Assembly: GCF_000949385.2 (NCBI RefSeq)
Contig: NZ_JYKO02000001.1
Coordinates: forward strand, 124,001-188,000
Source of the DNA: Pseudomonas sp. LFM046
Lineage (GTDB): Bacteria; Pseudomonadota; Gammaproteobacteria; Pseudomonadales; Pseudomonadaceae
DNA: 64,000 bases
Direction: 5' to 3'
Positions 29,723 through 52,076 of the stretch are shown here, piece after piece (positions within the stretch are counted from its first letter, which is position 1; every line of letters begins with the position of its first letter). Below the pieces are notes generated by a model. It was given only the letters and a program-made list of their open reading frames with translations, searched no databases and was not told the DNA's origin. A program made the translations under genes and the position numbers.

Positions 29723-30763
29723 ATGTCCGCCGTCGAGACCGATTTCACCGCCACTGCGCCCCTGACCCACTCTGCCACCCTGCGCCGCCTGCTCTACGAA
29801 GCCATGGCCGACCTCGGGCTGGACCCGGGGAAGGTCTATCAGGGCGTCAACCAGCACCGCCGCCGGGGGCCGCCTCCGGCGGACGGCCGTTTGCGCCACG
29901 ACGATGCCCCGCAGTTCTGGACCTCCGCCGACACGCTGTGCGGCGACCCCGATATCGGCCTGCACCTGGGGGAAGCCATGAAACCGCGCTTGCTGGATGT
30001 GGTGGGCTACCTGCTGCTGGCCAGCCGGGACCTGGGGGAGGCGCTGGCGAGTTTCCTGCGCTTCCAGCACATCCTTTCCGGTGGATTCGTCGCCCAGTTG
30101 CAGGAGCAGGGTGGGCAGGCGCGGCTGGTGCTCGATCTCAACTACCTGGGCTATTCGTCCTTGCGTCAGCAGATGGAATGCCTGGCGCTGCTGTTCACCA
30201 AGCTGCTGGGCTTCATCACCGACGGCGAGTTCCGCCTCCACGGCGTGCAGTTCCGGCATCCCCGGCCCGCTCGGGTGAGCGAACACCAGCGGCTGTTCGG
30301 ACTGCTCCCCGAGTTCGGTCGCGAGCACGATGTGCTGTTGTTCCCGGCGGCGCTGCTGAAGCGCCCGTCGCGCACCGCCAACCCGGAGATGCATGCGCTG
30401 CTCTGGCAGCACGCCGAGTCGCAGTTGGAGGCCTTGAAGGGCAACGATCTGCTCAACCGTCTGCGTTACCTGCTGGGCGTGCGGCTGGGGAGTGCGGATT
30501 GCTCGCTGGAGGCCTGCGCCGCCGAGCTGGGCCTTTCGGCTGGCGCCCTGCAGCGGGCATTGACGGAGCAGGGCAGCAACCTGCGACGGCTGCGCGAGTC
30601 GGTGCAGCGGACCCGGGCCGTGGACCTGCTGCAGGAGGGCAAGGCCTTGCGGGAGGTGGCCAGGGCTTGCGGTTTTTCCGAGCTGTCACCCTTCTACCGG
30701 GCCTTTCGCCGTTGGTACGGCGTGCCGCCAGAGGCATACCGGGCGCGTCTTGGGGCGGCTTAG
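29723..30763 (+). CDS. AraC family transcriptional regulator
   Basis: 346 residues. The N-terminal effector domain resembles the arabinose-binding-type domain of OruR-like regulators (VGYLLLASRDLGEALASFLRF). The C-terminal double helix-turn-helix is at about 255-346, with the second HTH in LREVARACGFSELSPFYRAFRRWYG. It is divergent from the acylase gene with a 109-nt gap, so local control is plausible. Its stop overlaps the convergent next gene by 4 nt. The inducer is unknown. Confidence 0.85.
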   Translation: MSAVETDFTATAPLTHSATLRRLLYEAMADLGLDPGKVYQGVNQHRRRGPPPADGRLRHDDAPQFWTSADTLCGDPDIGLHLGEAMKPRLLDVVGYLLLASRDLGEALASFLRFQHILSGGFVAQLQEQGGQARLVLDLNYLGYSSLRQQMECLALLFTKLLGFITDGEFRLHGVQFRHPRPARVSEHQRLFGLLPEFGREHDVLLFPAALLKRPSRTANPEMHALLWQHAESQLEALKGNDLLNRLRYLLGVRLGSADCSLEACAAELGLSAGALQRALTEQGSNLRRLRESVQRTRAVDLLQEGKALREVARACGFSELSPFYRAFRRWYGVPPEAYRARLGAA

Positions 30764-32465: not shown

Positions 32466-32497
32466 TGATGGGTATCGCAAGCTCCACCCATCCTACG
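32466..32497 (-). repeat. 32-nt repeat copy 1 (reverse orientation)
   Basis: Ends in CACCCATCCTACG. It is the exact reverse complement of the sequences at 41838-41869 and 44831-44862. It forms the right arm of a longer degenerate palindrome starting near 32411. The stretch from 32399 to 32675 holds no gene. Confidence 0.85.
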
Positions 32498-39598: not shown

Positions 39599-40264
39599 AT
39601 GAGCTACCAGCATCAGTACGTCGATGGCACCCCGATCCACTTTTCCCTGGGCAAGGTGGTCTGTGTCGGCCGCAACTACGCCGAGCATGCCAAGGAACTG
39701 AACAACCCCGTGCCGACCGAGCCGCTGCTGTTCATCAAGCCGGGCTCCTGCGTGGTGCCGCTGGTTGGCGGCTTCGGCATTCCGCAGGACCGCGGCGCGG
39801 TGCATTACGAGGCGGAAATCGCCGTGCTGATCGGCAAGCCGCTGTCCCGTCGTCCTGACGAGGAAGAAGTGCGCGACGCCATTTCCGGCTTCGCCCCGGC
39901 CCTGGACCTGACCCTGCGCGACGTGCAGGCCAGGCTCAAGGAGAAAGGCCTGCCCTGGGAAATCTCCAAGTCCTTCGACGGTGCCTGCGTGCTGGCGCCC
40001 TTCGTGCCGGGCGATGCCCCGGAGCGCCTGGACGAGATCGGCATCCGCCTGACCATCAATGGCCAGGTCTGCCAGGACGGCAACAGCCGCGACATGCTCA
40101 ACCCGATCCTGCCGCTGATCCAGCACATGGCCGGCCACTTCAGCCTGCAGCCGGGCGACGTCATCCTCACCGGTACGCCGGTGGGCGTCGGCCCGTTGAA
40201 TCCGGGCGACCAACTGGTGCTGGAGCTGGTGGGCCACAGCGCCTTCGAAAGCCGGGTCCTCTGA
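39599..40264 (+). CDS. Fumarylacetoacetate hydrolase (FAH) family protein
   Basis: 221 residues. FAH fold with the metal-binding Glu/Glu/Asp pattern around VHYEAEIAVLIGK (about 68-80), plus GRNYAEHAKELNN near the start and the closing GDVILTGTPVGVGP. Close in length to YcgM-type acylpyruvase or oxaloacetate decarboxylase members. The exact substrate cannot be read from the sequence. It follows the dehydrogenase gene behind a terminator. Confidence 0.88.
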   Translation: MSYQHQYVDGTPIHFSLGKVVCVGRNYAEHAKELNNPVPTEPLLFIKPGSCVVPLVGGFGIPQDRGAVHYEAEIAVLIGKPLSRRPDEEEVRDAISGFAPALDLTLRDVQARLKEKGLPWEISKSFDGACVLAPFVPGDAPERLDEIGIRLTINGQVCQDGNSRDMLNPILPLIQHMAGHFSLQPGDVILTGTPVGVGPLNPGDQLVLELVGHSAFESRVL

Positions 40265-40295
40265 TCCGGCCGACCGGCGGCGGCAAGCATTTCAC

Positions 40296-40324
40296 GGAAC
40301 TTTCACTGGCATCTGGCTATCTGT
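40296..40324 (+). promoter_or_regulatory. AlgU/RpoE-like promoter for the first SdiA-regulated-family gene
   Basis: GGAACTT (40296-40302) matches the extracytoplasmic stress -35 consensus exactly. A 17-nt spacer leads to TCTGT (40320-40324; consensus TCTGA). The gene start is 29 nt after it. Confidence 0.55.
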
Positions 40325-40352
40325 ACCCGACCCCATCGACGAGTCGTACCCA

Positions 40353-41303
40353 ATGTCACTCCGCTTCCCGAAGTGCATTCACCGCCCCCGGCTGATGCTG
40401 GGACTGGTCGCTGCCCTCGCCGGTGCCACTGCGCTGGTCCGCTTCATGCACTGGGACGACCGCGCCCAGGTCTGGCTCAGCGAGCATCAGCTGACCGCGG
40501 AACAGCGCGCCGACAGCATCTGGCTGCCGGGCTACAAGGCCGTCCTGCAGGGCAAGCCCCTGGCCGGCCTCGAGAACGACGAAACCTCTGATCTGGCCTA
40601 CAACCCCGTCACCGGCACCCTGTTCACCGTCACCGGCAAATCGCCGACCCTGGTGGAGCTGAGCCGCGACGGCGACGTGTTGCGCAAGATTCCGTTGAAA
40701 GGTTTCTCCAACCCGGAAGGCGTGGCGGTGCTGGAAGGCGGACACGTGGCGGTGACCGACGAGCGTCGCCGGACCCTGACTATCTTCGAACTGAACCCGG
40801 AAACCCGCGAGCTGACGGCGGGCAGCACCCCGGAGTTTGACCTGGGCTTCCCGGATTCCGGCAACAAGGGTTTTGAAGGCATTGCCTGGGACCCGGCCAA
40901 GGGCCGTCTGATCCTCGGCAAGGAGCGGGGCCCCATTGCCCTGTTCAGTCTCGGCAGTGACGGTAACGACACCCTGGACGAAGCGCTGCGTCCGCTGCCC
41001 AGCTACGGCTTGGGGATGCGCAATCTCTCCGCCCTCAGTGTCGACCCGCGCACCGGCCACCTGCTGGTGCTCTCGGCCCAGTCCAACCTGCTGCTGGAAC
41101 TGGACGACCAGGGTGAGCCGGTCAGCTTCATCAGTCTGCTGGGTGGCATGAACGGTCTGGAGAGTCGGATTCCCCGCGCCGAAGGCGTGGCCATGGACGA
41201 GAGCGGCGATATCTATGTCGTCAGCGAGCCGAACCTGTTCTACGTGTTCCGCAAGGAACTGGTGGCCAGCGCCGACGAGGACGAGGGTTTGTCGCTCCAG
41301 TAG
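40353..41303 (+). CDS. SdiA-regulated domain protein (YjiK-type), copy 1
   Basis: 316 residues with an N-terminal signal-anchor (about 14-30, LMLGLVAALAGATALV) and an extracytoplasmic beta-propeller. Repeat landmarks: ETSDLAYNPVTGTLFTVTG, GVAVLEGGHVAVTDERR, KGFEGIAWDPAKGRL, LSALSVDPRTGHLLVLS and EGVAMDESGDIYVVSEPNLFYVF. The family name comes from an E. coli homologue; the biochemical role is unknown. A paralogue is at 50048. It is preceded by an AlgU-like promoter, unlike its paralogue. Confidence 0.85.
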   Translation: MSLRFPKCIHRPRLMLGLVAALAGATALVRFMHWDDRAQVWLSEHQLTAEQRADSIWLPGYKAVLQGKPLAGLENDETSDLAYNPVTGTLFTVTGKSPTLVELSRDGDVLRKIPLKGFSNPEGVAVLEGGHVAVTDERRRTLTIFELNPETRELTAGSTPEFDLGFPDSGNKGFEGIAWDPAKGRLILGKERGPIALFSLGSDGNDTLDEALRPLPSYGLGMRNLSALSVDPRTGHLLVLSAQSNLLLELDDQGEPVSFISLLGGMNGLESRIPRAEGVAMDESGDIYVVSEPNLFYVFRKELVASADEDEGLSLQ

Positions 41304-41335
41304 GGTGCCCTGTTGGTTCCAGCGCCGCTCCCGCC

Positions 41336-41390
41336 GTTAAGCTTCGCTTAAGGTGCATTTAAGCCTCGATTCAGCTAGCGCTCCTAACCT
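41336..41390 (+). promoter_or_regulatory. Four direct-repeat boxes upstream of the CarO-like gene
   Basis: GTTAAG (41336), CTTAAG (41347), TTTAAG (41358) and ATTCAG (41369) begin exactly 11 nt apart, each separated by 5 nt. This is the layout of PmrA/PhoP/OmpR-class response regulator sites. A weak -10-like TAACCT is at 41385-41390, placing the last boxes over the -35 position. Confidence 0.65.
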
Positions 41391-41425
41391 GATCCCGTCT
41401 TCCAAACACACACGGGATCACCTCC

Positions 41426-41773
41426 ATGAACGCCAAATACCTCGCCCTGCTGGCCGCTCCGCTGTTCTCCACCGCCGTCATGGCCAGCAGCTACACCGGC
41501 CCGGGCGCTGCCACCCAGATCAATACAGTCGCTGCCGCCCTCGAAGCCGCCGACGATGCCCCCGTGGTACTGCAAGGTCAGATCGTCCGCCGCATCAAGG
41601 GCGATATCTACGAGTTCAAGGACGCCACCGGCACCATGAAGGTGGAAATCGACGACGAGGACTGGCCGCCGCAGACCATCGGCGAGAAGGACACCGTCAA
41701 GCTGACCGGCGAAGTCGACCGAGACCTGACTGGCCGCGAAGTGGATGTGGAGTTCGTTGAGCGGGTGAATTGA
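41426..41773 (+). CDS. YgiW/YdeI-family OB-fold protein, CarO-like
   Basis: 115 residues. Signal peptide to about residue 20 (LLAAPLFSTAVMASS), then a bacterial OB-fold (BOF) domain: VVLQGQIVRRIKGDIYEFKDATG, MKVEIDDEDWPPQTI and VKLTGEVDRDLTGREVDVEFV. The family is periplasmic and stress-related. In P. aeruginosa the homologue CarO is a calcium-regulated OB-fold protein, as I recall, and the position in the gene order agrees. The four 11-nt spaced boxes upstream suggest response-regulator control. Confidence 0.85.
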   Translation: MNAKYLALLAAPLFSTAVMASSYTGPGAATQINTVAAALEAADDAPVVLQGQIVRRIKGDIYEFKDATGTMKVEIDDEDWPPQTIGEKDTVKLTGEVDRDLTGREVDVEFVERVN

Positions 41774-41779
41774 TCGATG

Positions 41780-41811
41780 CAGCCCCTCTCCCGCTTGCGG
41801 GAGAGGGGCTG
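41780..41811. terminator. Hairpin after the CarO-like gene
   Basis: CAGCCCCTCTCCCGC (41780-41794), TT centre, then the perfect inverse (41797-41811). No T-run follows. It is the same type of stem as at 27166-27188, so it is either a terminator or a repeat. Confidence 0.55.
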
Positions 41812-41837
41812 TGTCGTCCAGCCGACTCATTGAGCGA

Positions 41838-41869
41838 CGTAGGATGGGTGGAGCTTGCGATACCCATCA
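41838..41869 (+). repeat. 32-nt repeat copy 2
   Basis: Starts CGTAGGATGGGTGGAGC. Identical to 44831-44862 and to the reverse complement of 32466-32497. It is followed by a second hairpin (GGCCGAAGG at 41902-41910 with CCTTCGGCC at 41916-41924) and a half-copy of the 24341-type repeat (about 41928-41948). Confidence 0.85.
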
Positions 41870-41962
41870 ACCCAGTCCGCATGGGTATCCGGTAATTGAA
41901 CGGCCGAAGGGCAGACCTTCGGCCTGCTTGGCGAATGAATTCGCCCCTACAACGATAGGGCC

Positions 41963-42994
41963 CTAGGCCACGCTCTCGAACCCCTGCAGCACATTGATCG
42001 CGTTGATGCCGATCTCTTCCACCGCGTAGCCCCCCTCCATCACGAAGAGCGTCTGCAAGCCGAGCTTGCCGATGATCTCGCCCATGCGCAGGTAATCCGG
42101 GCTGTCCAGCTTGAACTGCGAGATGGGGTCTTCCTTGAAGGTATCCACGCCCAGCGACACCACCAGTGCGTCCGGCGCGTACTCGGCGATCTGCCGGCAG
42201 GCGTCGGCCAGGGCGAGGCTCCAGACGGTCCAGTCGCTGCCTTCGGCCAGGGGGTAGTTGAAATTGAATCCGGCCCCGGCGCCCACGCCCTTCTCGTCGG
42301 CGAAGCCCAGGTAGTAGGGGTACTCGAAACGCGGGTCGCCGTGGATCGAGGTGAAGAGCACGTCCGCACGGTCGTAGAAGATGTCCTGGGTGCCGTTGCC
42401 GTGGTGGTAGTCCACATCCAGCACCGCGACGCGCTTGGCGCCGGCATCCAGCATGGCCTGCACGGCGATGGCGGCGTTGTTCAGGTAGCAGTAGCCGCCC
42501 ATGTAGTCCGCGGCGGCATGGTGGCCCGGCGGGCGGCACAGGGAAAAGATGCCGCGAGCGCCCTTGCGCAGCTCCGCCTGGCCGGTGAGGGCGACGTTGG
42601 CCGAACTGGTGATGGCCTGCCAGGTGCCAGCGGTGATGGGGGCGCCGGCATCGAAGGAGTAGTAGCCGAGGCGGCCGTCAATGTCGGTGGGTTCCACCTG
42701 GCGCAGGCGCCGGGTCGGCCAGGCGATGGGCAGCATGTCGTGGCTGCGGCCCTTGGCCTGCCAGTCGCTCCAGGCGTTCTTCAGGAAGTTGACGAAGCCT
42801 TCGCTGTGTACCCGCAGGATGGGCGACAGGCCGAAGTCGGCGGGCGTCTGGATTGCGCCCAGTTTCACCGCCTTGGCGCGGTCCAGCACCATGTCGGCGC
42901 GGCTCGGCTTCTCGAAGCAGGGGGTGAACTGGCCACCGATCAGCTCGTGCTTGCCGTGGTGCAGGTGGTGGTCGTCGGAATAGATCGTCAGCAT
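41963..42994 (-). CDS. Acetylpolyamine amidohydrolase (class II histone deacetylase family)
   Basis: 343 residues. Zinc-dependent deacetylase that releases polyamines from their acetyl derivatives. Zinc ligands by alignment are D195, H197 (DVDYHH) and D284 (LGVDTFKED). The catalytic His pair is H158-H159 (RPPGHHA), and the transition-state Tyr is Y323 (MEGGYAVEE). This numbering coincides with the well-studied Mycoplana ramosa enzyme as I remember it. It is 33 nt after the permease gene, so the two are co-transcribed. It corresponds in position to AphB of P. aeruginosa. Confidence 0.93.
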   Translation of the reverse strand: MLTIYSDDHHLHHGKHELIGGQFTPCFEKPSRADMVLDRAKAVKLGAIQTPADFGLSPILRVHSEGFVNFLKNAWSDWQAKGRSHDMLPIAWPTRRLRQVEPTDIDGRLGYYSFDAGAPITAGTWQAITSSANVALTGQAELRKGARGIFSLCRPPGHHAAADYMGGYCYLNNAAIAVQAMLDAGAKRVAVLDVDYHHGNGTQDIFYDRADVLFTSIHGDPRFEYPYYLGFADEKGVGAGAGFNFNYPLAEGSDWTVWSLALADACRQIAEYAPDALVVSLGVDTFKEDPISQFKLDSPDYLRMGEIIGKLGLQTLFVMEGGYAVEEIGINAINVLQGFESVA

Positions 42995-43027
42995 CAGCGT
43001 CTCCTTGCGGCTAGCGTTGGGGTGGGC

Positions 43028-44419
43028 TCATTCGAACTCGGAAAACTGCACCTGCGGTGCCGGACGGCGGAAGCCTCCGGTCTGCACCGCCAGGTAGGCC
43101 AGGCCGACGGCGAACCAGCCGGTGCCGATGGCCAGGGTCAGGGCCGACAGGCTGGTCCACAGCCAGGCGATCAGGGCGAAGCCGATCACCGGGACCAGGC
43201 CGTAGCGCAACAGATCGCCGCTCTGGCGCGGGCGGCCACTGAACAGGTAGGTGCGGATCACCGCCAGGTTCACGGCGGAGAAGGCCACCAGGGCGCCGAA
43301 ACTGATCATGGACGCCAGTGTGGCGAGGTCGATGACCACCGCCAGCAGCGACACGGCCGAGACGATCAGGATAGCCACGGTCGGCGTATGGAAGCGCTCC
43401 GACAGCGTGCCGAACAGGCGGCGCGGCAGGATGCCGTCGCGGCCCATGCTGTAGAGGATGCGCGACACCGAGGCCTGGGAGGCCAGGGCGGAACCCGCCG
43501 CGCCGGCGACATAGGTGGCGGTGAAGAAGGCGGCGAGGAACTGGCCGCCGGCCGTCAGCATCACTTCATTGGCGGCGGCGTCGACGTCCTTGAAGCTGCT
43601 GCCGGGGAACACCAACTGGCTGAGCAGCGACAGCAGGAAGAACAGCACGCCGGCGCTGAGGGTGGTGATGATGATCGCGCGGGGAATGTCGCGCTTCGGA
43701 TCGCGGGCTTCCTCGGCCAGGGTGGACACCGCGTCGAAGCCGAGGAAGGACAGGCAGAGCACCGCCGCGCCGGCCATCAGCGGCGCCAGTCCGGGCTGGC
43801 TGCCGTCACCGACGAAGGGCGCGGTGAAGTCGATGGGGCCGGTCATCAGGCTCTTGCCGGTCATGGCCAGGAACACGACGACGAAAATCAGCTGGGCGGT
43901 GACGATCAGGTTGCTCATGCCCGACACCGAGCTGATGCCGAGGATGTTCAGCACGGTCACCAGGGCGATGGTGCTGACCACGAAGACCCAGGCCGGCACT
44001 TCGGGGAAGGCGATGTTGAGGAAGAGGCCGATCACCAGGTAGTTGATCATCGGCAGGAACAGGTAATCCAGCAGCAGCGACCAGCCGGCGAGGAAGCCGA
44101 CGCCGGGGCCGAAGCTCAGGCTGGTGTAGGAGTAGGCCGAACCGGCGATGGGGTAGCGGCGGACCATGTAGCTGTACGACAGGGCGGTGAAGATCATCGC
44201 CAGCAGGGTCACCACATAGGCCAGGGCGGTGCGCCCGCCGGTCATTTCAGTGACCACGCCGTAGGTGGTGAAGATGGTCAGCGGCACCATGTAGACGAGG
44301 CCGAAGAAGACCAGGGCGGGCAGCCCGAGTATCCGGCGCAGGGCCGTGCCCTGGGCGCTGTGGGTGAAATCGTTGGGCAGGCCGGCATTGCTGGCGAGGC
44401 TGGCGGAAGGGGTCGACAT
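43028..44419 (-). CDS. APC superfamily amino acid/polyamine permease
   Basis: 463 residues from the ATG at 44419, with GGAGAG upstream; the frame is open further upstream but has no family-like sequence. Twelve hydrophobic segments are apparent. APC-family landmarks: GLVYMVPLTIFTTYG near the first helix, AYSYTSLSFGPGVGFLAGW, and SFLGFDAVSTLAEEARDPKRDIPRA in the middle. The pairing with an acetylpolyamine deacetylase suggests an exchange or uptake role for polyamines or amino acids. It has its own promoter about 260 nt upstream. Confidence 0.88.
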   Translation of the reverse strand: MSTPSASLASNAGLPNDFTHSAQGTALRRILGLPALVFFGLVYMVPLTIFTTYGVVTEMTGGRTALAYVVTLLAMIFTALSYSYMVRRYPIAGSAYSYTSLSFGPGVGFLAGWSLLLDYLFLPMINYLVIGLFLNIAFPEVPAWVFVVSTIALVTVLNILGISSVSGMSNLIVTAQLIFVVVFLAMTGKSLMTGPIDFTAPFVGDGSQPGLAPLMAGAAVLCLSFLGFDAVSTLAEEARDPKRDIPRAIIITTLSAGVLFFLLSLLSQLVFPGSSFKDVDAAANEVMLTAGGQFLAAFFTATYVAGAAGSALASQASVSRILYSMGRDGILPRRLFGTLSERFHTPTVAILIVSAVSLLAVVIDLATLASMISFGALVAFSAVNLAVIRTYLFSGRPRQSGDLLRYGLVPVIGFALIAWLWTSLSALTLAIGTGWFAVGLAYLAVQTGGFRRPAPQVQFSEFE

Positions 44420-44680
44420 TGTTCTTCTCTCCGTTTTACTGCGCACCCGTGAGGGGTGCCTGGGTCGCAAGGCGAGCCATCCGTGCGTGTGCAAGGCCGG
44501 GTCCGTTGCGCATCCGGCTGTGCGCGGGCAGTCAGTAAGGGTGGAGGCGAAGCATCCGCTGGGCGGAAGGAAGGAAAGCGGTGTGGATCGGAAGCGCACG
44601 GGACATCGTCATATCTCTCTAGCCATTGTTCTTGTTGAATCGGCACCCGTCTGTGGGGCGCCCGCTAGTTGCATGCGCTT

Positions 44681-44747
44681 CGATTCTGTCAGTGGAATAC
44701 CGGGGGCAGAACTCTGCAAAGGGTCAAAAAGGGATCAAAGTGGCCAA
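44681..44747 (-). promoter_or_regulatory. Regulated promoter module A (permease-deacetylase)
   Basis: Plus-strand landmarks: GGTCAAAA at 44722-44729, GGGAT at 44731-44735, GGCCAA at 44742-44747, and CGATTCTGTCAG at 44681-44692. Reading leftward the last is CTGACAGAATCG, an extended -10 (TGACAGAAT). The site would lie at about -46 to -71. It matches module B at 48804-48871. Confidence 0.65.
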
Positions 44748-44830
44748 CCTTGATGGCCGGCTGATGGGGTGGGGTGCACCTCGCGCACCGGGAATTCCGC
44801 GCGAACCGATCGGTACGGGTCCGGTCGGTT

Positions 44831-44903
44831 CGTAGGATGGGTGGAGCTTGCGATACCCATCACCATCGCCGATGGGTATCGCTTCGCTCCACGCCATCCT
44901 ACG
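44831..44903. repeat. Full palindromic element containing 32-nt repeat copy 3
   Basis: Left arm 44831-44862 is identical to copy 2; right arm 44871-44903 is its near-perfect inverse (GATGGGTATCGC to CCATCCTACG). It sits just after the solute-binding protein gene stop and could work as a transcription terminator or mRNA-stabilising stem. Confidence 0.85.
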
Positions 44904-44910
44904 GCCCGCT

Positions 44911-45960
44911 TTACTTCTTCAGCTTGGTCCATACCTTGCTGCGCAGGTTCAGGGCCTTGGGCGAGCAGAGCTTGAAGGTCTTCAGGCGGTCCAGTTTGTC
45001 TTGCGGGGTGTTGATGGCCGGGTCGTCGAACAGCTCCTTCTCCATGAACTTGTCCGAGCCCTCGATGGCGTTGTTGTACTTGGCGAAGTTGGAGGCGGCG
45101 GCGATGTTCTCCGGCAGCATCATCCAGTTGATGAAGGCGTGGGCCTCTTCCACGTTCACCGCATCCTTCGGAATCACCAGGTTGTCGATGAAGACGTGGA
45201 TGCCTTCTTTCGGATAGACGTAGACCAGGCTGTCGCGCTGGGCGTGGGCGCGATGGAAGGCGCCGTTCCACTGCTGGTGCATGGCCACTTCGCCCGCGGC
45301 CATGCGCTCGATGGTGCCGTCACTGTTGTACATGGCGAGCAGCGGCTTCTGCGCCAGCAGCAGGTCCTGGATCTTCTTCGCGTCCTTCGGGTCCTCGGTG
45401 CACTGGTCGATGGACAGATAGTGGGACGCGGCGATGTAGAGGTCTTCGATGGAGTTCAGCGCCACCACCTTGCCCTTCAATTCGGCCGACGGTTCGAAGA
45501 AGGGCTTCCAGCTCTCGTCGAGCTTGCCCCCCGGCACCTGCTTGCTGTCGTAGCTGTAGCCGGTGGTGCCCCAGAGGTAGGGCACGCTGTAGTCGTGGCC
45601 GGGGTCGAAGCTGAGGGTCTGGAAGTTGGCCTTGAGGTTGGTCAGGTTGGGCAGCTTGCTCTTGTCGAATTTCTGCAGCAGGTCGTCCTGCACCATGATC
45701 TGGATGAAGCTGTCCGACGGCACCACCACGTCATAGGCGCCGCCACCGGCCTTGAGTTTGGCCAGCAGGGTCTCGTTGCTGTCGTAGGCGTCCAGGGTGG
45801 CCGTGATGCCGGTGTCCTTCTCGAACTTCTTCAGCAGCTCCGGCGGGTAATAGTCCGACCAGTTGGCGAAGTGCAGGGTCCCGGCGGCCTGGGCGGAACC
45901 GGCCAGGCCGGTAGCGAGCAGAACGGCGAGCGCGAGCGGGGTACGACGGGTCATGGTCAA
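44911..45960 (-). CDS. Polyamine ABC transporter substrate-binding protein (PotF/PotD-like)
   Basis: 349 residues. Signal peptide to about residue 25 (GLAGSAQAAG). The mature start TLHFANWSDYYPPELLKKFEK has the W-S-D-Y polyamine-binding motif of PotF/PotD. The body follows the family (GGGAYDVVVPSDSFI, VPYLWGTTGYSYD). The operon context with a deacetylase suggests acyl- or acetylated polyamines as ligands. GGAG lies 7 nt before the ATG at 45960. It is the fourth gene of the importer transcript. Confidence 0.92.
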   Translation of the reverse strand: MTMTRRTPLALAVLLATGLAGSAQAAGTLHFANWSDYYPPELLKKFEKDTGITATLDAYDSNETLLAKLKAGGGAYDVVVPSDSFIQIMVQDDLLQKFDKSKLPNLTNLKANFQTLSFDPGHDYSVPYLWGTTGYSYDSKQVPGGKLDESWKPFFEPSAELKGKVVALNSIEDLYIAASHYLSIDQCTEDPKDAKKIQDLLLAQKPLLAMYNSDGTIERMAAGEVAMHQQWNGAFHRAHAQRDSLVYVYPKEGIHVFIDNLVIPKDAVNVEEAHAFINWMMLPENIAAASNFAKYNNAIEGSDKFMEKELFDDPAINTPQDKLDRLKTFKLCSPKALNLRSKVWTKLKK

Positions 45961-45983
45961 GCTCCTTGCTGGTCGAAAGCGGG

Positions 45984-46772
45984 TCAGCGCTTGCGCTGCC
46001 CGACGTAGTAGGACAATGCAACGAACGCGATGGAAATGACGAGGATGATCGAGGAGATGGCGTTGATCTTCGGCGAGATGCCCATCCTGATGGAGCTGAA
46101 GATGTACACCGGCAGGGTGGTGGCGCCGGCCCCGGCGACGAAGTAGGTGATGACGAAGTCGTCCATGGAAATGATGAACGCCAGCATGGCGCCGGAGAGG
46201 ATGCCGGGCATCAGCAGCGGGAAGGTCACCTTCCAGAAGGCCTTCCAGGGCGAGGCATAGAGGTCGGCGGCGGCCTCGGCCAGGCGCGGGTCCATGCCCT
46301 CCAGGCGGGCGCGGATCGGCAGGTAGGCGAAGGGAATGCAGAACACCACGTGTGCGATGAGGATGGTGAAGAGCGACAGCTTCAGCCCGATGAAGGCGAA
46401 GAACATCAGGGTGGCGACGGCGGTGACGATCTCCGGCACCAGCAGCGGCAGGCCCAGCACCCCGCTCATCATCGTCTGACCGCGGAAGCTGCGGCCACGC
46501 ATGCCCAGCGCCGCCAGGGTGGCCAGCGAGGTGGAAATCAGGGTGGCGAAGGTGGCGACGATCAGCGAGTTCTTCGCCGCGCGGACGATTTCCGGGTCAT
46601 TGGCCACCACCGAGTACCACTTCAGGCTGAAGCTCTCCCAGATGGTGGCGGACTGGCCGCCGTTGAAGCTCAGGGCCACCAGCACCAGGATCGGCACATA
46701 GAGGAAGGCGAAGAACAGCCAGGCGGTGGGCCGGACGCCGGTGAAGCGCCAGAGCGGGTTCTGCATGTTCAT
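45984..46772 (-). CDS. Polyamine ABC transporter permease (PotC-like)
   Basis: 262 residues with six predicted membrane helices. The binding-protein-dependent permease motif is EAAADLYASPWKAFWKVTFPLLMPGI. It pairs with the other permease to form the membrane channel. Its start overlaps the upstream permease stop (ATGA). The solute-binding protein gene follows by 23 nt. Confidence 0.92.
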   Translation of the reverse strand: MNMQNPLWRFTGVRPTAWLFFAFLYVPILVLVALSFNGGQSATIWESFSLKWYSVVANDPEIVRAAKNSLIVATFATLISTSLATLAALGMRGRSFRGQTMMSGVLGLPLLVPEIVTAVATLMFFAFIGLKLSLFTILIAHVVFCIPFAYLPIRARLEGMDPRLAEAAADLYASPWKAFWKVTFPLLMPGILSGAMLAFIISMDDFVITYFVAGAGATTLPVYIFSSIRMGISPKINAISSIILVISIAFVALSYYVGQRKR

Positions 46773-47683
46773 GGATGGCCTCCGCCGGCGGCCTGCTTGA
46801 AGCGCAGGCTGTAGAGCAGCATCGCCAGTAGCACGAAGCCGAGCAGGGCGAAGGACAGCGCCGCACCGAGGGGCCAGTTGTGGGATGCGCCGAACTGCAA
46901 CTGGATCAGGTTGCCGATCATCAGCGACTTACCGCCCCCCAGCAGCTCGGGAATGATGTAGTTGCCCAGCGATGGGATGAACACCAGGATCGCCCCGGCG
47001 ACGATGCCCGGCATGGCCAGCGGCACGATCACCCGACGCAGGGCTTGGAAGCGGTTGGCGCCGAGGTCGAAGGCTGCTTCCACCAGGCGCCAGTCGAGCT
47101 TTTCCAGGCTGGTGTAGATGGGCAGCACCATGAAGGGCAGGAAGGTGTAGAGCAGGCCGATCACCACCGCCACATCGGTGTAGAGCAGGCCAAGCGCGCC
47201 ATCGGACAGGCCGAATACACCGAGACCGCTGTCGATCAGGCCGCCATTGCGCAGCAGCAGGATCCAGGCGTAGACCCGCACCAGCAGGTTGGTCCAGAAG
47301 GGCACCGTGACCAGGAACAGCAACAGGTTGCGCCGCCGCTCGCTCTGCAGCGCCAGGTAAAGCGCGGTGGGAAAACCGATCAGCAGGCAGCCGATCGTGG
47401 TCAGCACCGAGAGCCAGAACGAACGCTGGAAGATCTGCAGGTAGTCGGTGTTGAACACCAGGCTGTCGTCCAGGTCGCGCTCGTAGAGGAAGTTGACGTA
47501 GGCCTCCAGGGAATACTGGTTCCACTTCACGCCGCCGTAGTCGCCGGGGACCAGGACCGACACCAGGAACATGATCCCCAGCGGCAGTACCAGAAACACC
47601 AGCAGGGCCAGCATGGCCGGGCTGGTGAGCAGCAGTCGCCGACGCAGCTGGCGGCGCTCGGCCTGGGCGCGCAGGGTGCTCAT
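46769..47683 (-). CDS. Polyamine ABC transporter permease (PotB-like)
   Basis: 304 residues. A charged N-terminus precedes six membrane helices. The EAA loop reads [26 protein letters not shown]. It overlaps the ATPase gene stop by 4 nt and the second permease start by 4 nt, so the importer subunits are translationally coupled. Confidence 0.92.
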
Positions 47684-48729
47684 TCCACCAGCACCCGAAT
47701 GGCTTCGCTGGGCACCTGCACCCGCACCTTTTCGCCCGTGGCGTAGGCGGTCAGCGCACCGTTGCGGTTCTGCTGGCGCACGCGGAAACCGCTCTGCCCC
47801 GCGATGTTGAGGTGGTAGACGGTGTCAGTGCCGACATAGACGACGTTCTCGATCTCGCCGGCGAGATTGCCGCGCTCGTCGAGGCTGGTGCGTTCCGGGC
47901 GGATGGCCAGGGTCACCGCGCCGCGGCGGGGACTGTAGGCGGAGAGCAGTTGGCCGTCGGACAGCAGCACGCCGCGCTCCAGGGCTTCGCCTTCGAGGAA
48001 GTTGGTCTCGCCGATGAAGTCCGCCACGGTGCGGTTGACCGGGGCTTCGTAGATGTCCGTGGGCGTGCCCACTTGGAGGATGCGCCCCTTGCTCATCACC
48101 GCAATGCGGTCGGACATGGTCAGGGCTTCTTCCTGGTCGTGGGTGACGAAGATGAAGGTAATGCCGGTTTCGTGCTGCAGGCGCTTGAGTTCGATCTGCA
48201 TTTCCTTGCGCAGCTTCTGGTCCAGCGCCGACAGGGATTCGTCCAGCAGCAGCACCTTCGGCTTGTTCGCCAGCGCCCGGGCCAGGGCGATGCGCTGCTG
48301 CTGGCCGCCGGAAAGCTGGTCGGCGCGGCGCTTGCCCACGTCCGGCAGCTTCACCAGTTCCAGCATGCGCTGCACCGTGGCGTCGATCTCGTCACGGCCG
48401 AGACCGCGCATTTCCAGGCCGAAGCCGATGTTCTGCGCCACCGTCATGTGGGGGAACAGGGCGTAGCTCTGGAATACGGTGTTGACGGGACGTCGGAAGG
48501 GGGGAAGGCCCTGCATGGGCTCGCCGTAGAGGCGAATGGCGCCGGAGCTGGGCTGCTCGAAGCCGGCGATGAGCCGCAGGAGGGTGGTCTTGCCGCAGCC
48601 GGAAGGGCCGAGGAGGGTGAAGAACTCGTTGGCGCGGATTTCCAGGGACACGTCGTCGAGGGCCTTCACGCCCTGCCCTGGATCCCCGAACTCCATACAC
48701 ACACGGTCGACGCTGATCGCGCTAGTCAT
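47680..48729 (-). CDS. Polyamine ABC transporter ATP-binding protein (PotA-like)
   Basis: 349 residues from the ATG at 48729; a GTG at 48738 would add three residues. Walker A is GPSGCGKTT (41-49), the signature is [14 protein letters not shown], and Walker B with D-loop is [12 protein letters not shown] (the DES form seen in PotA). A C-terminal TOBE-type regulatory domain is present (about 240-349). It is the first gene of the importer operon, about 70 nt downstream of module B. Confidence 0.93.
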
Positions 48730-48803
48730 GCTGATCACACGCTCTGATTGTTTTTCTTATCGGGCTTTTCTTTTTCTGCTGGTGAAGCCGCCCTCGTGTG
48801 GTC

Positions 48804-48871
48804 CGATTCTGTCAGCAGCCCGGTTTGCTGAAGAACGATAGATCAGGTCAAAAGGGGATATTTCCGGCCAA
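48804..48871 (-). promoter_or_regulatory. Regulated promoter module B (importer operon)
   Basis: Plus-strand landmarks: GGTCAAAA at 48846-48853, GGGAT at 48855-48859, GGCCAA at 48866-48871 and CGATTCTGTCAG at 48804-48815. Spacing GGTCAAAA to GGCCAA is 20 nt, as in module A; GGCCAA to the -10 box is 51 nt against 50 in A. The site would lie at about -47 to -72 relative to the predicted start. Confidence 0.65.
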
Positions 48872-48911
48872 GTTGTGGGCTGTGATGAGGGGCAAAGGGC
48901 GGCTTTCGACG

Positions 48912-49928
48912 CTATCGCCGGTACAGACTCGGCGACTGCCCGCTCCAGCGCTGGAAGGCATGGCGGAAGCTGGCGGTCTCGCTGTAGCCCAGTTGTTCGG
49001 CGATCAGGTAGATGGGCAGGTCGGTCTGCACCAGCAACTCCCGCGCCTTGTCGTAGCGCACTTCGTCCAGCAGGCGCTGGAAGCTGGTGTTCAGCCGTTG
49101 CAGGTGGCGGCGCAGGGTGCGTTCGGAGCGGTGCAGCTGGCGCGCCACGCTGTCCAGGTCGCAGGCTTCGCGCAGGTTGCCGGCCAGGTGTTGGCGAATC
49201 TGGTCGAGGACGTCGTGGCGGCTGTCGAGCTGGGCGTCCAGCTTCTGGCATTGCTGCAGGCCGTAGTGGCAGGTCACCGGATCGGCCAGGGGCAGGTGGC
49301 GGTCCAGCAGGGCGGCCTCGAAGCAAAGGGCATTGCACGGGGCGCCGAACTCCACCGGGCAGCCGAGCCTCTGTTCATAGGCGGCGGCATGCAGGGGCGG
49401 CCGGTAGGACAGCCGGACCCGCGTCGGGTGGATGCCGGTACCCAGCAGGTCCTGCAGCACGGTGAGGAGCGAGGTCAGGCACAGCTCGGTGTTGAACACC
49501 GTCAGCTCCGGCGCGTAGCGGTAACCACCAGCGACCAGGCGGGCTTCGTCCCCGTCTTCCTCCAGGCTCAGCTTGAAGTAGGTGCCGAGCAGCGCTGGAT
49601 GGCCAAGGGCGAGGGTCAGGGCGTCCCGCAGGGTGCGGCTGGCGAGCATGGTGTAGCCGAGGATGCCGTAGGCTGAAACGTGCATGCGCAGCCCGAGGGA
49701 CACGCCGAGGGCTGGGTCGCGGGTGCAGGCCAGGGCATTGGCGAAGACGCGCAGTTCCTGGGCGTGGGTGATGAGTTTCGCGGGGGTGTCGAGGTCGGCG
49801 CAGGCGACGCCGCTGCCCTCCAGCAGGCGCTGGCGGGGAATGCCGCTGCTGGCCAGGGTCGCCACTGCCAGGGCGATGGTGTGCAGGGTGGTGAGTGCGC
49901 GCTCTTCCGGTAGCAGTGAAGTGGTCAT
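48912..49928 (-). CDS. AraC family regulator, probable activator of the polyamine locus
   Basis: 338 residues from the ATG at 49928 (MTTSLLPEERALTTLH); in-frame codons upstream have no support. The N-terminal part matches the arabinose-binding-type effector domain (SLGLRMHVSAYGILGYTMLAS). The C-terminal pair of helix-turn-helix motifs lies at about 240-338, with LIAEQLGYSETASFRHAFQRWSG as the second. It is immediately upstream of the importer promoter on the same strand, and the shared motif in modules A and B is the right size for an AraC-type site. The ligand is unknown, possibly a polyamine. Confidence 0.87.
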   Translation of the reverse strand: MTTSLLPEERALTTLHTIALAVATLASSGIPRQRLLEGSGVACADLDTPAKLITHAQELRVFANALACTRDPALGVSLGLRMHVSAYGILGYTMLASRTLRDALTLALGHPALLGTYFKLSLEEDGDEARLVAGGYRYAPELTVFNTELCLTSLLTVLQDLLGTGIHPTRVRLSYRPPLHAAAYEQRLGCPVEFGAPCNALCFEAALLDRHLPLADPVTCHYGLQQCQKLDAQLDSRHDVLDQIRQHLAGNLREACDLDSVARQLHRSERTLRRHLQRLNTSFQRLLDEVRYDKARELLVQTDLPIYLIAEQLGYSETASFRHAFQRWSGQSPSLYRR

Positions 49929-50047
49929 GTCCGTCCCTTTTTGTAACGCCCCTGGTGCCCGATTGCCGGGCATTAAGCTTGAATTCAGGCAGTAACCCGG
50001 TGCGCTCTGTATCCTGCGCCGCGTCCTGAACTCCCGAGCCCTTGCTG

Positions 50048-50971
50048 ATGCGTTCCTTCCTGACCCCGCGGCGCCTGGCCGCCACGCTTTTGCTTCTGGT
50101 GCTGATGCTGCTTGGCATTGCCGCCCAGCAGTTCCGGCTCTTCGAGCGGGGCCTGTTCGTTTTGCAAGAATGGCGCCACGCCGCCGAATGGAAGGATCGC
50201 TCCATCTGGCTGCCGGACTTCCGCGTCAGCATCGAGGCCAAGCCCATCGAGGGCCTGACGGACGATGTGTCCGCCCTGACCTACGATCCCGACCGCCACA
50301 GTCTGTTCACCGTCACCAACCAGCGCCCGGAGCTCATCGAGCTGTCCCTCGACGGCCACCTGATCCGGCGCATCCCCTTGGTGGGCTTTGGCGATCCCGA
50401 GGCCATCGAGTACATCAGCAAGGGTATCTACGTCATTACGGACGAGCGGGAGCAGCGTCTGATCAAGGTGCGCGTGGACGAAAACACCACGTCCATCGAT
50501 GCCAGCCAGTCCCAGCAGTTGTCCCTGGCCATCGGCCTGTCCGGCAACAAGGGGTTCGAGGGGCTGGCCTATGATCCGGCCGGCCAGCGCTTGTTCGTCG
50601 CCAAGGAGCGCGATCCGGTGCGCATCTATGAGATCCATGGGTTCCCCCATACGCGCCCGGACAAGCCCTTCGCCGTGCACGTGGTGGACGACCCGAAACG
50701 CGATGCGCGGCTCTTTGTCCGCGACCTGTCCAGCCTGCAGTACGACGACCGCAGTGGCCACCTGCTGGCGCTGTCGGACGAATCGCGGCTGGTGCTGGAG
50801 TTGAACGCGGATGGTCGGCCCATCAGCAGCCTGTCGCTGCTGCGGGGTATGCACGGCCTGCAGCGTGGGGTGCCGCAGGCCGAAGGGGTGGCCATGGACA
50901 ACGAAGGCAACCTCTATCTGGTGAGCGAGCCGAACCTGTTCTACGTGTTCCGCAAGCAGGCTCGCGACTGA
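50048..50971 (+). CDS. SdiA-regulated domain protein (YjiK-type), copy 2
   Basis: 307 residues from the ATG at 50048; a TTG at 50042 is less likely. N-terminal hydrophobic anchor (about 12-27, LLLLVLMLLGIAAQQF) and a beta-propeller with LSALTYDPDRHSLFTVTN, NKGFEGLAYDPAGQRL, LSSLQYDDRSGHLLALS and the shared ending AEGVAMDNEGNLYLVSEPNLFYVFRK. Paralogue of the protein at 40353. It is divergent from the AraC regulator and abuts the convergent YegP-like gene with no gap. Confidence 0.85.
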   Translation: MRSFLTPRRLAATLLLLVLMLLGIAAQQFRLFERGLFVLQEWRHAAEWKDRSIWLPDFRVSIEAKPIEGLTDDVSALTYDPDRHSLFTVTNQRPELIELSLDGHLIRRIPLVGFGDPEAIEYISKGIYVITDEREQRLIKVRVDENTTSIDASQSQQLSLAIGLSGNKGFEGLAYDPAGQRLFVAKERDPVRIYEIHGFPHTRPDKPFAVHVVDDPKRDARLFVRDLSSLQYDDRSGHLLALSDESRLVLELNADGRPISSLSLLRGMHGLQRGVPQAEGVAMDNEGNLYLVSEPNLFYVFRKQARD

Positions 50972-51304
50972 TCAGCTTTCGTCGTTGAGGGTGGCGCCCG
51001 GGGCGTTGCTCTTCACCGACTCGATGCCCCCGCTGGCGCTGGCGGCGCTGGCGTACATCTGGCTCTGGCCGATGACCTGGCCGTTGGTGGCCTTGAGCAC
51101 GAAATAGAATTTGCCGTTGCTGGCGGTCTTGCTTTCGAAGGCGCCGTCGCGAACGGCGTTCTTGCGCACGGAATCGATACCGTTCAAGGCGGAATCCTTG
51201 GCCTTGTACAGCTCGCTGGTGAGGATGGTTTCGCCGTTGCCGGCGTTCAGGTTGAAGTGGAATTGGCCATCACTGGCCTTCTTCAGATGAAATTTCCCGG
51301 CCAT
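50972..51304 (-). CDS. DUF1508 (YegP-like) tandem-repeat protein
   Basis: 110 residues from the ATG at 51304, preceded by AGGAGGTG. Two repeats of the DUF1508 unit: MAGKFHLKKASDGQFHFNLNAGNGETILTSELY and ESKTASNGKFYFVLKATNGQVIGQSQMY, each followed by a short helix (KDSALNGIDSVRKNA, ASASGGIESVKSNA). Small soluble proteins of unknown function. Its stop directly abuts the stop of the convergent SdiA-type gene. Confidence 0.9.
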   Translation of the reverse strand: MAGKFHLKKASDGQFHFNLNAGNGETILTSELYKAKDSALNGIDSVRKNAVRDGAFESKTASNGKFYFVLKATNGQVIGQSQMYASAASASGGIESVKSNAPGATLNDES

Positions 51305-51404
51305 GGGGAGCACCTCCTGGATCAGTGGCATTGGACGGCGCCTTCCGGCGCCGTAGCCATCAAATCTAGTCGGTTTGCCAGATCCCGCAGGCCGGGAAAC
51401 GGCG

Positions 51405-52076
51405 TCAGGCCGTGATGCTCTTCACGCCGTCCTTGGTGCCGAGCAGCAGCAGGTCCGCCGGGCGGGCGGCGAACAGGCCGTTGGTGACCACGCCGACGAT
51501 GTTGTTGATCTGCTCTTCCAGCTGAGCCGGGCTGTCGATGCGCATGTTGTGCACGTCGAGGATGATGTTGCCGTTGTCGGTCAGCACACCCTCGCGATAG
51601 ACCGGATCGCCGCCCAGCTTCACCAGTTGGCGGGCGACATGGCTGCGAGCCATGGGGATGACTTCCACCGGCAGCGGGAAGGCGCCCAGCAGCGGAACCA
51701 GCTTGCTCTCGTCGGCGATGCAGATGAAGGTCTTGGCCACGGCGGCGACGATCTTCTCGCGGGTCAGGGCCGCGCCGCCGCCCTTGATCAGTTCGAGACG
51801 CTCGTTGCTCTCGTCGGCGCCGTCGACGTAGAACTCGAGCTCGCTGGTGCTGTTCAGGTCATAGACCGGGATGCCGTGGGCCTTCAGGCGCTGGGCGGTG
51901 GCTTCGGAACTGGCCACGGCGCCGTCGAAGGCCATCTTGTGCTTGGCCAGCAGGTCGATGAAGAAGTTGGCGGTGGAGCCGGTGCCGACACCGATGATGC
52001 TCTTCTCATCGAGCTTGGGGAGGATGAAGTCGATGGCGGCCTGGGCGACGGCCTGCTTGAGCTGGTCCTGGGTCAT
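51405..52076 (-). CDS. rpiA: Ribose-5-phosphate isomerase A
   Basis: 223 residues. Interconverts ribose 5-phosphate and ribulose 5-phosphate in the pentose phosphate pathway. Signature motifs: [14 protein letters not shown] near the start, VDGADES in the middle and [14 protein letters not shown]. The ATG at 52076 leaves 141 nt to the divergent ilvA. Confidence 0.97.

Follow-up and report, generated by a model that had tools for sequence, protein, structure and literature searches.

A candidate AraC-type operator before the acetylpolyamine-utilisation genes of Pseudomonas

Which protein senses acetylated polyamines in Pseudomonas, and through which DNA site might it control the genes for their use? 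In P. aeruginosa, acetylputrescine and acetylcadaverine are deacetylated by PA0321 and PA1409, and strains in which either gene is disrupted grow more slowly on these compounds (PMC4784309, PMC11532494). Both genes rise with acetylputrescine and agmatine (PMC4784309), and induction by acetylputrescine but not by putrescine is reported for this polyamine branch. No regulator or operator for these genes is named in the literature searched, which excluded most subscription journals. We address the question at an acetylpolyamine locus of Pseudomonas sp. LFM046, in a 64,000-nucleotide (nt) stretch of contig NZ_JYKO02000001.1 (hereafter the window), where a first-pass annotation had noted two promoters of shared build. 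A 26-bp element common to these promoters emerges as the putative operator of a small group of AraC-type regulators.

The locus comprises araC, an importer operon, a permease gene and the deacetylase gene aphB, all read leftward on the minus strand. Their order is araC (48912-49928), site B, the four importer genes (48729 to 44911; ATPase, two permeases, binding protein), site A, permease and aphB. Sites A and B lie in modules made up as follows, in window coordinates.

Module A: box GGTCAAAA at 44722-44729, box GGGAT at 44731-44735, box GGCCAA at 44742-44747, 12-mer at 44681-44692
Module B: box GGTCAAAA at 48846-48853, box GGGAT at 48855-48859, box GGCCAA at 48866-48871, 12-mer at 48804-48815

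These positions, read directly from the sequence, are those first annotated, as is the identical spacing: in both modules the box starts lie 9 and 11 nt apart (20 nt in total), with gaps of 1 and 6 nt between boxes. On the minus strand, both promoters hold TTGGCC-N6-ATCCC-N3-TTGACC and then, 29 nt (A) or 30 nt (B) on, CTGACAGAATCG; the sequence of site A is TTGGCCACTTTGATCCCTTTTTGACC, that of site B TTGGCCGGAAATATCCCCTTTTGACC. The distance of 50 or 51 nt to the 12-mer that had been given holds when counted to GGCCAA, while the gap from GGTCAAAA is 29 or 30 nt. The exact 12-mer is found at two places only in the window, one in each module; allowing up to two mismatches gives five matches, with 4.8 expected. 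The sequence between the blocks is less divergent than had been described, as GTTCT stands at the same place in both modules (minus strand; A 44712-44708, B 48836-48832) and the conserved block extends beyond the three boxes.

When the 5.97-Mb genome was scanned with the 26-bp pattern at up to three mismatches, five matches were obtained: sites A and B, a third site, C, and two weak ones inside open reading frames. Site C (L006:6031-6056, TTGGCCACTTTGATCCCCTATTGGCC) has two mismatches and lies at 1714030, 1.54 Mb from the window sites, with CAGAAT 35 nt on. The start codon of a second deacetylase gene, aphA, follows 79 nt after site C, and a polyamine-type binding-protein gene comes next. AphA and AphB share 67% identity. 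A second AraC-type gene with a PF12625 domain, AraC_A, ends 0.84 kb upstream of site C, and its product is 46% identical to that of the window gene, AraC_B. We take the window locus to correspond to PA0321-PA0326 of P. aeruginosa, and site C to PA1409-PA1410, which the gene order fits. Among 18 genomes of the genus, scanned at up to two mismatches, every one has at least one copy of the element, and the reversed pattern, used as a control, has 0 matches. Because matches are so few in 5.97 Mb and the control has none in the genus, the likeness of A and B exceeds chance.

What kind of site is it? Its architecture was computed from a footprint sample of 70 non-redundant sites (10 A-type, 32 B-type and 28 C-type). 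The 26-bp element carries 1.82 (A), 1.64 (B) and 1.66 (C) bits per column, figures that are inflated by having picked the sites with that same pattern. The next 17 bp are free of this selection and carry 1.79, 1.54 and 1.29 bits; the conserved block is therefore about 42 bp long. Over the 73 bp beyond, the values are 0.85, 0.41 and 0.64, and over the 60 bp upstream of the element 0.65, 0.21 and 0.66. Matching the first 17 columns against the remaining columns gave a direct repeat with a best lag of 20 for the whole sample (0.61, next 0.31), for B-type sites (0.72, next 0.36) and for C-type sites (0.45), and inverted-repeat scores were at most 0.27. Site B is a clear 20-bp direct repeat. The element before the second deacetylase gene of genome G030, a gene with one in-frame TGA, is a plain 21-bp repeat, TTGGCCGGATTTATCCCTTTG then TTGGCCGGCGTTATCGTTTCC.

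One position after the element, at the predicted -35, is fixed: TTCT occurs there in 82/90 sites and TTTT in 5/90 (87/90 together). The -35 had been called poor, and so it is, but it is constant in place. Two direct half-sites 20 or 21 bp apart beside a -35 are the operator layout of AraC/XylS proteins, not the palindrome of LysR or NtrC. In the best reading, the element is a tandem pair of AraC half-sites with a 20-bp period, of which the second, weak at site A, adjoins the predicted -35. The predicted parts, all on the minus strand, are these:

44731..44747, minus strand: distal half-site of site A, TTGGCCACTTTGATCCC, from sequence, family scan and footprint
44711..44727, minus strand: proximal half-site of site A, TTGACCCTTTGCAGAGT, degenerate, a clear repeat of the TTGACC box only
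44706..44711, minus strand: predicted -35 of promoter A, TTCTGC; TTCT is here in 17/17 A-type sites
44683..44688, minus strand: predicted -10 of promoter A, CAGAAT, after a 17-nt spacer, within CTGACAGAATCG (44681-44692)
48855..48871, minus strand: distal half-site of site B, TTGGCCGGAAATATCCC, from sequence and footprint
48835..48851, minus strand: proximal half-site of site B, TTGACCTGATCTATCGT, from sequence and the lag-20 repeat
48830..48835, minus strand: predicted -35 of promoter B, TTCTTC, sharing one base with the end of the proximal half-site
48806..48811, minus strand: predicted -10 of promoter B, CAGAAT, after an 18-nt spacer, within CTGACAGAATCG (48804-48815)

How far does the element extend beyond this genome? 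When sites are typed by sequence and location, 12 of the 18 genus genomes have A, B and C together. We computed the element's conservation and co-occurrence with the neighbouring genes in 198 Pseudomonadaceae genomes, using the element pattern and searches for the AraC (E ≤1e-60) and the deacetylase (aph; E ≤1e-100). Both genes are found in 94/198 genomes, and in 83 of these 94 a canonical match occurs somewhere in the genome. The other 11 all belong to one genus (g5) and have, between araC and aph, a variant with a 21-bp period: in 11/11, looked at in this expected place, there is a stretch resembling (C/G/T)TGTCCG-N5-ATCCC whose TGTCC recurs at a distance of 21 bp (one has GGTCCC for GATCCC). 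Three genomes have aph without AraC (G019, G033 and G058); the best fit in the 400 bp upstream of the gene has 8-9 mismatches, and G033 has one element match on another contig. Neither gene is found in 100/198 genomes, and a match at up to two mismatches occurs in 14 of these 100; seven of the 14 were seen among the matches listed and are chance-like in appearance. As a control, the reversed pattern gave 7 matches over all 198 genomes.

The element also keeps to its place. Among the matches listed, 130/150 lie upstream of aph on the same strand within 8 kb, with 67 at up to 300 bp and 63 at 0.3-8 kb, the latter being where A and B lie. The other 20 of the 150 listed comprise three before a lone binding-protein homologue, one at the permease of G002, those of G008 and G169 on contigs without aph, and 14 that include coding and chance-like matches. 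An exact scan across 368 genomes of the class gave one genome besides this one (G360), with the pattern in a stretch unlike these promoters; the pattern was strict, would miss variants, and met one other Pseudomonadaceae genome in that sample.

Loci from named species tell a similar story. In the best 80 of 461 loci found by the deacetylase pair, the site is present on the sense strand with up to three mismatches in 71, among them loci of P. resinovorans, P. otitidis, P. citronellolis, P. nitroreducens, P. alcaligenes, P. fluorescens, P. protegens, P. koreensis and P. putida. The nine without it are L044, where the permease is present, three on short contigs (L051, L053 and L061) and five from Aquitalea. 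Three of the Aquitalea loci (L081, L084 and L088) were read by eye, L082 having been left out and L083 being cut, and show TTGGCC and TTGACC 21 bp apart in the gap between araC and the importer (in L081, TTGGCCGAAATTATCCCTTAGTTGACC). Site A is found in 16 of the 18 named loci that have the permease. In loci without a permease match, such as L045, aphB lies close behind the importer binding-protein gene, so site B would there serve both importer and aphB. A lack of conservation before orthologous operons, which the first-pass annotation had named as refuting its proposal, was not what the genomes showed: the boxes are kept there in much of the family Pseudomonadaceae, and g5 and Aquitalea have variants of them.

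This distribution bears on one alternative, that A and B resemble each other as the trace of a recent promoter duplication without function. Promoters A and B are only 4.1 kb apart and have the 12-mer and three boxes in common, as a duplication would leave them. The two promoters differ, however, in the sequence that separates and flanks the blocks, while the element itself is preserved in other genera and at the aphA promoter, which is unlinked. This conservation contradicts a functionless duplication, which we regard as extremely improbable.

A few matches were rejected as operators or stand apart. The weak match at 3973847 in this genome corresponds to the 3' end of a conserved reading frame, as does one in G014, and a match in G016 looks similar; that at 1882337 lies inside a 557-codon open frame. 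A match in G002 at 2952202 (L180 2203-2228), with two mismatches, lies away from the aph genes in no obvious conserved frame and is unexplained. Extra copies stand before lone polyamine-type binding-protein genes in G184 (L169 3090-3115), G134 (L171 3006-3031) and G138 (L172 3873-3898), which are likely additional members of the regulon. A second deacetylase homologue, at 59-62% identity, occurs in six genomes (G045, G082, G096, G131, G142 and G150). In G082, the one of the six that was read (L184 4162-5184), no element lies upstream, so not every aph homologue belongs to the regulon.

Which protein, then, would bind the element? The genes of the window locus include one regulator:

48912..49928, minus strand: AraC_B, AraC-type regulator (PF12625 and HTH_18), the candidate DNA-binding protein from domain search, co-occurrence and tree
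47680..48729, minus strand: importer ATPase, first gene of the importer operon behind promoter B (ABC_tran, TOBE_2)
46769..47683, minus strand: importer permease 1, from reading frame and operon position
45984..46772, minus strand: importer permease 2, from reading frame and operon position
44911..45954, minus strand: importer solute-binding protein (SBP_bac_8)
43028..44419, minus strand: amino-acid/polyamine-type permease behind promoter A (AA_permease)
41963..42994, minus strand: AphB-type acetylpolyamine amidohydrolase, 3' of the permease (Hist_deacetyl; 67% identity to the AphA paralogue at site C)

AraC_B has an N-terminal PF12625 Arabinose_bd domain (E 2.5e-48) and the C-terminal DNA-binding domain of the AraC/XylS family with its two helix-turn-helix motifs, HTH_18 (PF12833, E 1.4e-21, residues 262-338); its matches in the PDB gave no hint of a ligand. 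The genome has 21 PF12625 hits, and a tree was built from 20 of them (the short hit L208 was dropped) together with 19 chosen sequences from other genomes, which are part of the AraCs at hand. AraC_B, AraC_A and the AraCs of g5 and Aquitalea form one clade of 21 sequences with support of 100/98, and the other 18 paralogues of this genome fall outside it. Within the named loci, such an AraC lies inside the fetched DNA in 67 of the 71 with a site, and two of the remaining loci (L096 and L116) are truncated where their contigs end. Since the element co-occurs with this group, it is very probably the binding site of one small AraC-type group.

The first-pass annotation had proposed AraC_B as the regulator. 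Its clade does accompany the element, but with two paralogues it is not the sole candidate. Genome G130 retains sites A and C with AraC_A only, 55 kb from aphA. G002, which lacks aphB and AraC_B, retains aphA, AraC_A and the permease with its A site. Conversely, G030, G162 and G193 have AraC_B only, with elements at both deacetylase loci. That single-regulator genomes keep several site types suggests that AraC_A and AraC_B share specificity. Recognition helices are largely common to the groups compared (RTLRR, ASFRHAF).

Might the element be a genuine operator of a different regulator, for instance PA2206 or another LysR-type protein, or a global regulator of nitrogen or carbon metabolism, while the adjacent AraC controls something else? 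In one table from a P. aeruginosa array under hydrogen peroxide, positive regulation by PA2206 is recorded for genes of both aph loci, namely PA0321, PA0323, PA1409 and PA1410 (PMC3557286). A LysR-like gene also lies 3' of the aphA-binding-protein pair in this genome, and two complete named loci have the element with no AraC nearby. Against this stand the company that the element keeps, as it (g5 variant included) accompanies one AraC clade in 94/94 genomes with both genes and is absent at the gene in 3/3 aph genomes without the AraC, and its form, a 20/21-bp tandem repeat beside the -35 with low inverted symmetry. We consider control by such another regulator quite unlikely.

Several observations count against the reading of one AraC-controlled regulon. 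Its second half is not always intact: the lag-20 value of A-type sites is 0.29, third after lags 11 and 10, with a degenerate proximal half-site, and the second half of site C in this genome keeps the TTGGCC box only, without TTCT. Sites are missing in some genus genomes at up to two mismatches: G003 has A and B and no C; G004, G008, G009 and G017 have B and C and no A; and G002 has A, one unexplained match elsewhere and no C. Site A is absent upstream of the permease in L044 (9 mismatches) and L046 (8 mismatches). L064 and L067, both full-length, have the element and no such AraC within the fetched 8 kb. The clade further includes an AraC_B orthologue in G018 (71% identity; L163 5146-6153), the only one of the 198 genomes with the AraC and no aph, where neither aph nor the element occurs in the 14 kb read and no element match is found in the genome; we read this protein as an orphaned or reassigned regulator. 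When helix-turn-helix consensus sequences were compared between groups, no residue change clearly tracked the g5 variant. Finally, the variants of g5 and Aquitalea came to light in places inspected because an element was expected there, and the whole-unit match of Aquitalea L084 peaks at lag 22, not 21.

Weighing all of this, we think it likely, with good though not complete confidence, that the importer, permease-aphB and aphA promoters are driven by an AraC-type activator that responds to acetylpolyamines and exists as two paralogues whose specificities overlap. Sites A, B and C would be the operators of one acetylpolyamine-utilisation regulon with at least three promoters. Each operator would consist of two half-sites in direct repeat, TTGRCC-N6-ATC, with a spacing of 20 bp or, in some lineages, 21 bp. 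An AraC/XylS-type protein whose ligand domain is PF12625, either AraC_B in the window or AraC_A beside aphA, would bind it as a dimer. The downstream half-site would abut a weak -35 (TTCTKC), with a CAGAAT -10 17-18 nt further on at A and B, which would place the transcription starts about 7 nt beyond it, near 44676 and 48799. The bound regulator would activate on sensing an acetylated polyamine, most likely acetylputrescine. That importer, permease and deacetylase form one regulon, as had been suggested earlier, is thus supported by conservation and AraC co-occurrence, and the third promoter, that of aphA, enlarges it.

Binding by the AraC protein might instead mainly repress these promoters, or hold RNA polymerase off until the ligand arrives, rather than bring about class II activation. 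Some AraC-type proteins both activate and repress, and the proximal half-site adjoins the predicted -35. The poor -35 fits activation better, as does the lack of a strong sigma-70 promoter: no self-sufficient one was found in 44400-48950, a weak result given that 0.5 were expected. The published effect of acetylputrescine is induction, which is compatible with either mode. We judge a mainly repressive role unlikely, and activation by the AraC paralogues remains the reading that we prefer.

We speculate, more tentatively and at somewhat less than even chances, that a dedicated clade of acetylpolyamine-sensing PF12625 AraCs, with two paralogues of interchangeable operator specificity, runs a three-promoter regulon in much of the Pseudomonadaceae and in Aquitalea, with either paralogue backing up the other, and that a leader peptide on the permease transcript may provide a further layer of control. 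That transcript would begin with some 257 nt of leader (44420-44676, minus strand). A short open reading frame of 20-29 codons lies at a similar place in 17/17 A-type leaders compared (the window and 16 named loci), alongside other short frames. The predicted peptides begin MSRA in this genus and mostly end PY; in the citronellolis-nitroreducens group they begin MTSFC or similar and end RCG or HCG. It is a possible leader peptide. A scan of 40000-51500 against Rfam gave no family at gathering score.

Two further features of the window were noted. Another PF12625 AraC-type gene, one of the 21 genome hits, lies at 29816-30367. An identical 30-mer, GTAGGATGGGTGGAGCTTGCGATACCCATC, occurs three times (32467-32496, 41839-41868 and 44832-44861, with 0 expected) and once more near site C (L006 5906-5935), and looks like a dispersed palindromic repeat.

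The acetylputrescine-induced branch of polyamine use thereby gains a concrete putative operator sequence and a candidate sensor. The question of what senses acetylpolyamines in Pseudomonas is narrowed to a two-gene deletion and a gel shift. The motif can also extend the regulon, for example to the lone binding-protein genes described above, and the element could be used as an acetylputrescine biosensor promoter. PA1380 of P. aeruginosa is possibly the orthologue of AraC_A, judging by gene type and position. It has been studied by chromatin immunoprecipitation sequencing, electrophoretic mobility shift assay and deletion, with targets in cupB, motility and pyocyanin, and the terms polyamine, PA1409, PA0322 and PA0326 are absent from the main text of that study (PMC13086498).

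How does the proposed system compare with those already known? In the araI1-I2 sites of AraC and the Pm promoter of XylS, two direct half-sites likewise lie some two helical turns from each other; the proximal one is at the -35, as is predicted here, and AraC/XylS activators likewise have a C-terminal double helix-turn-helix. Here, by contrast, the half-site is TTGRCC-N6-ATC, the ligand domain is PF12625, the spacing is mostly 20 bp, and two paralogues apparently share the sites. The PA0321/PA1409 system presumably has orthologous enzymes and transport genes, matched through locus names. Co-induction is reported for it and the accessible excerpts name no regulator or operator, for both of which candidates are supplied here (PMC4784309, PMC11532494). 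The kind of system, AraC/XylS-type regulation, is well known; what is new is the proposed regulon.

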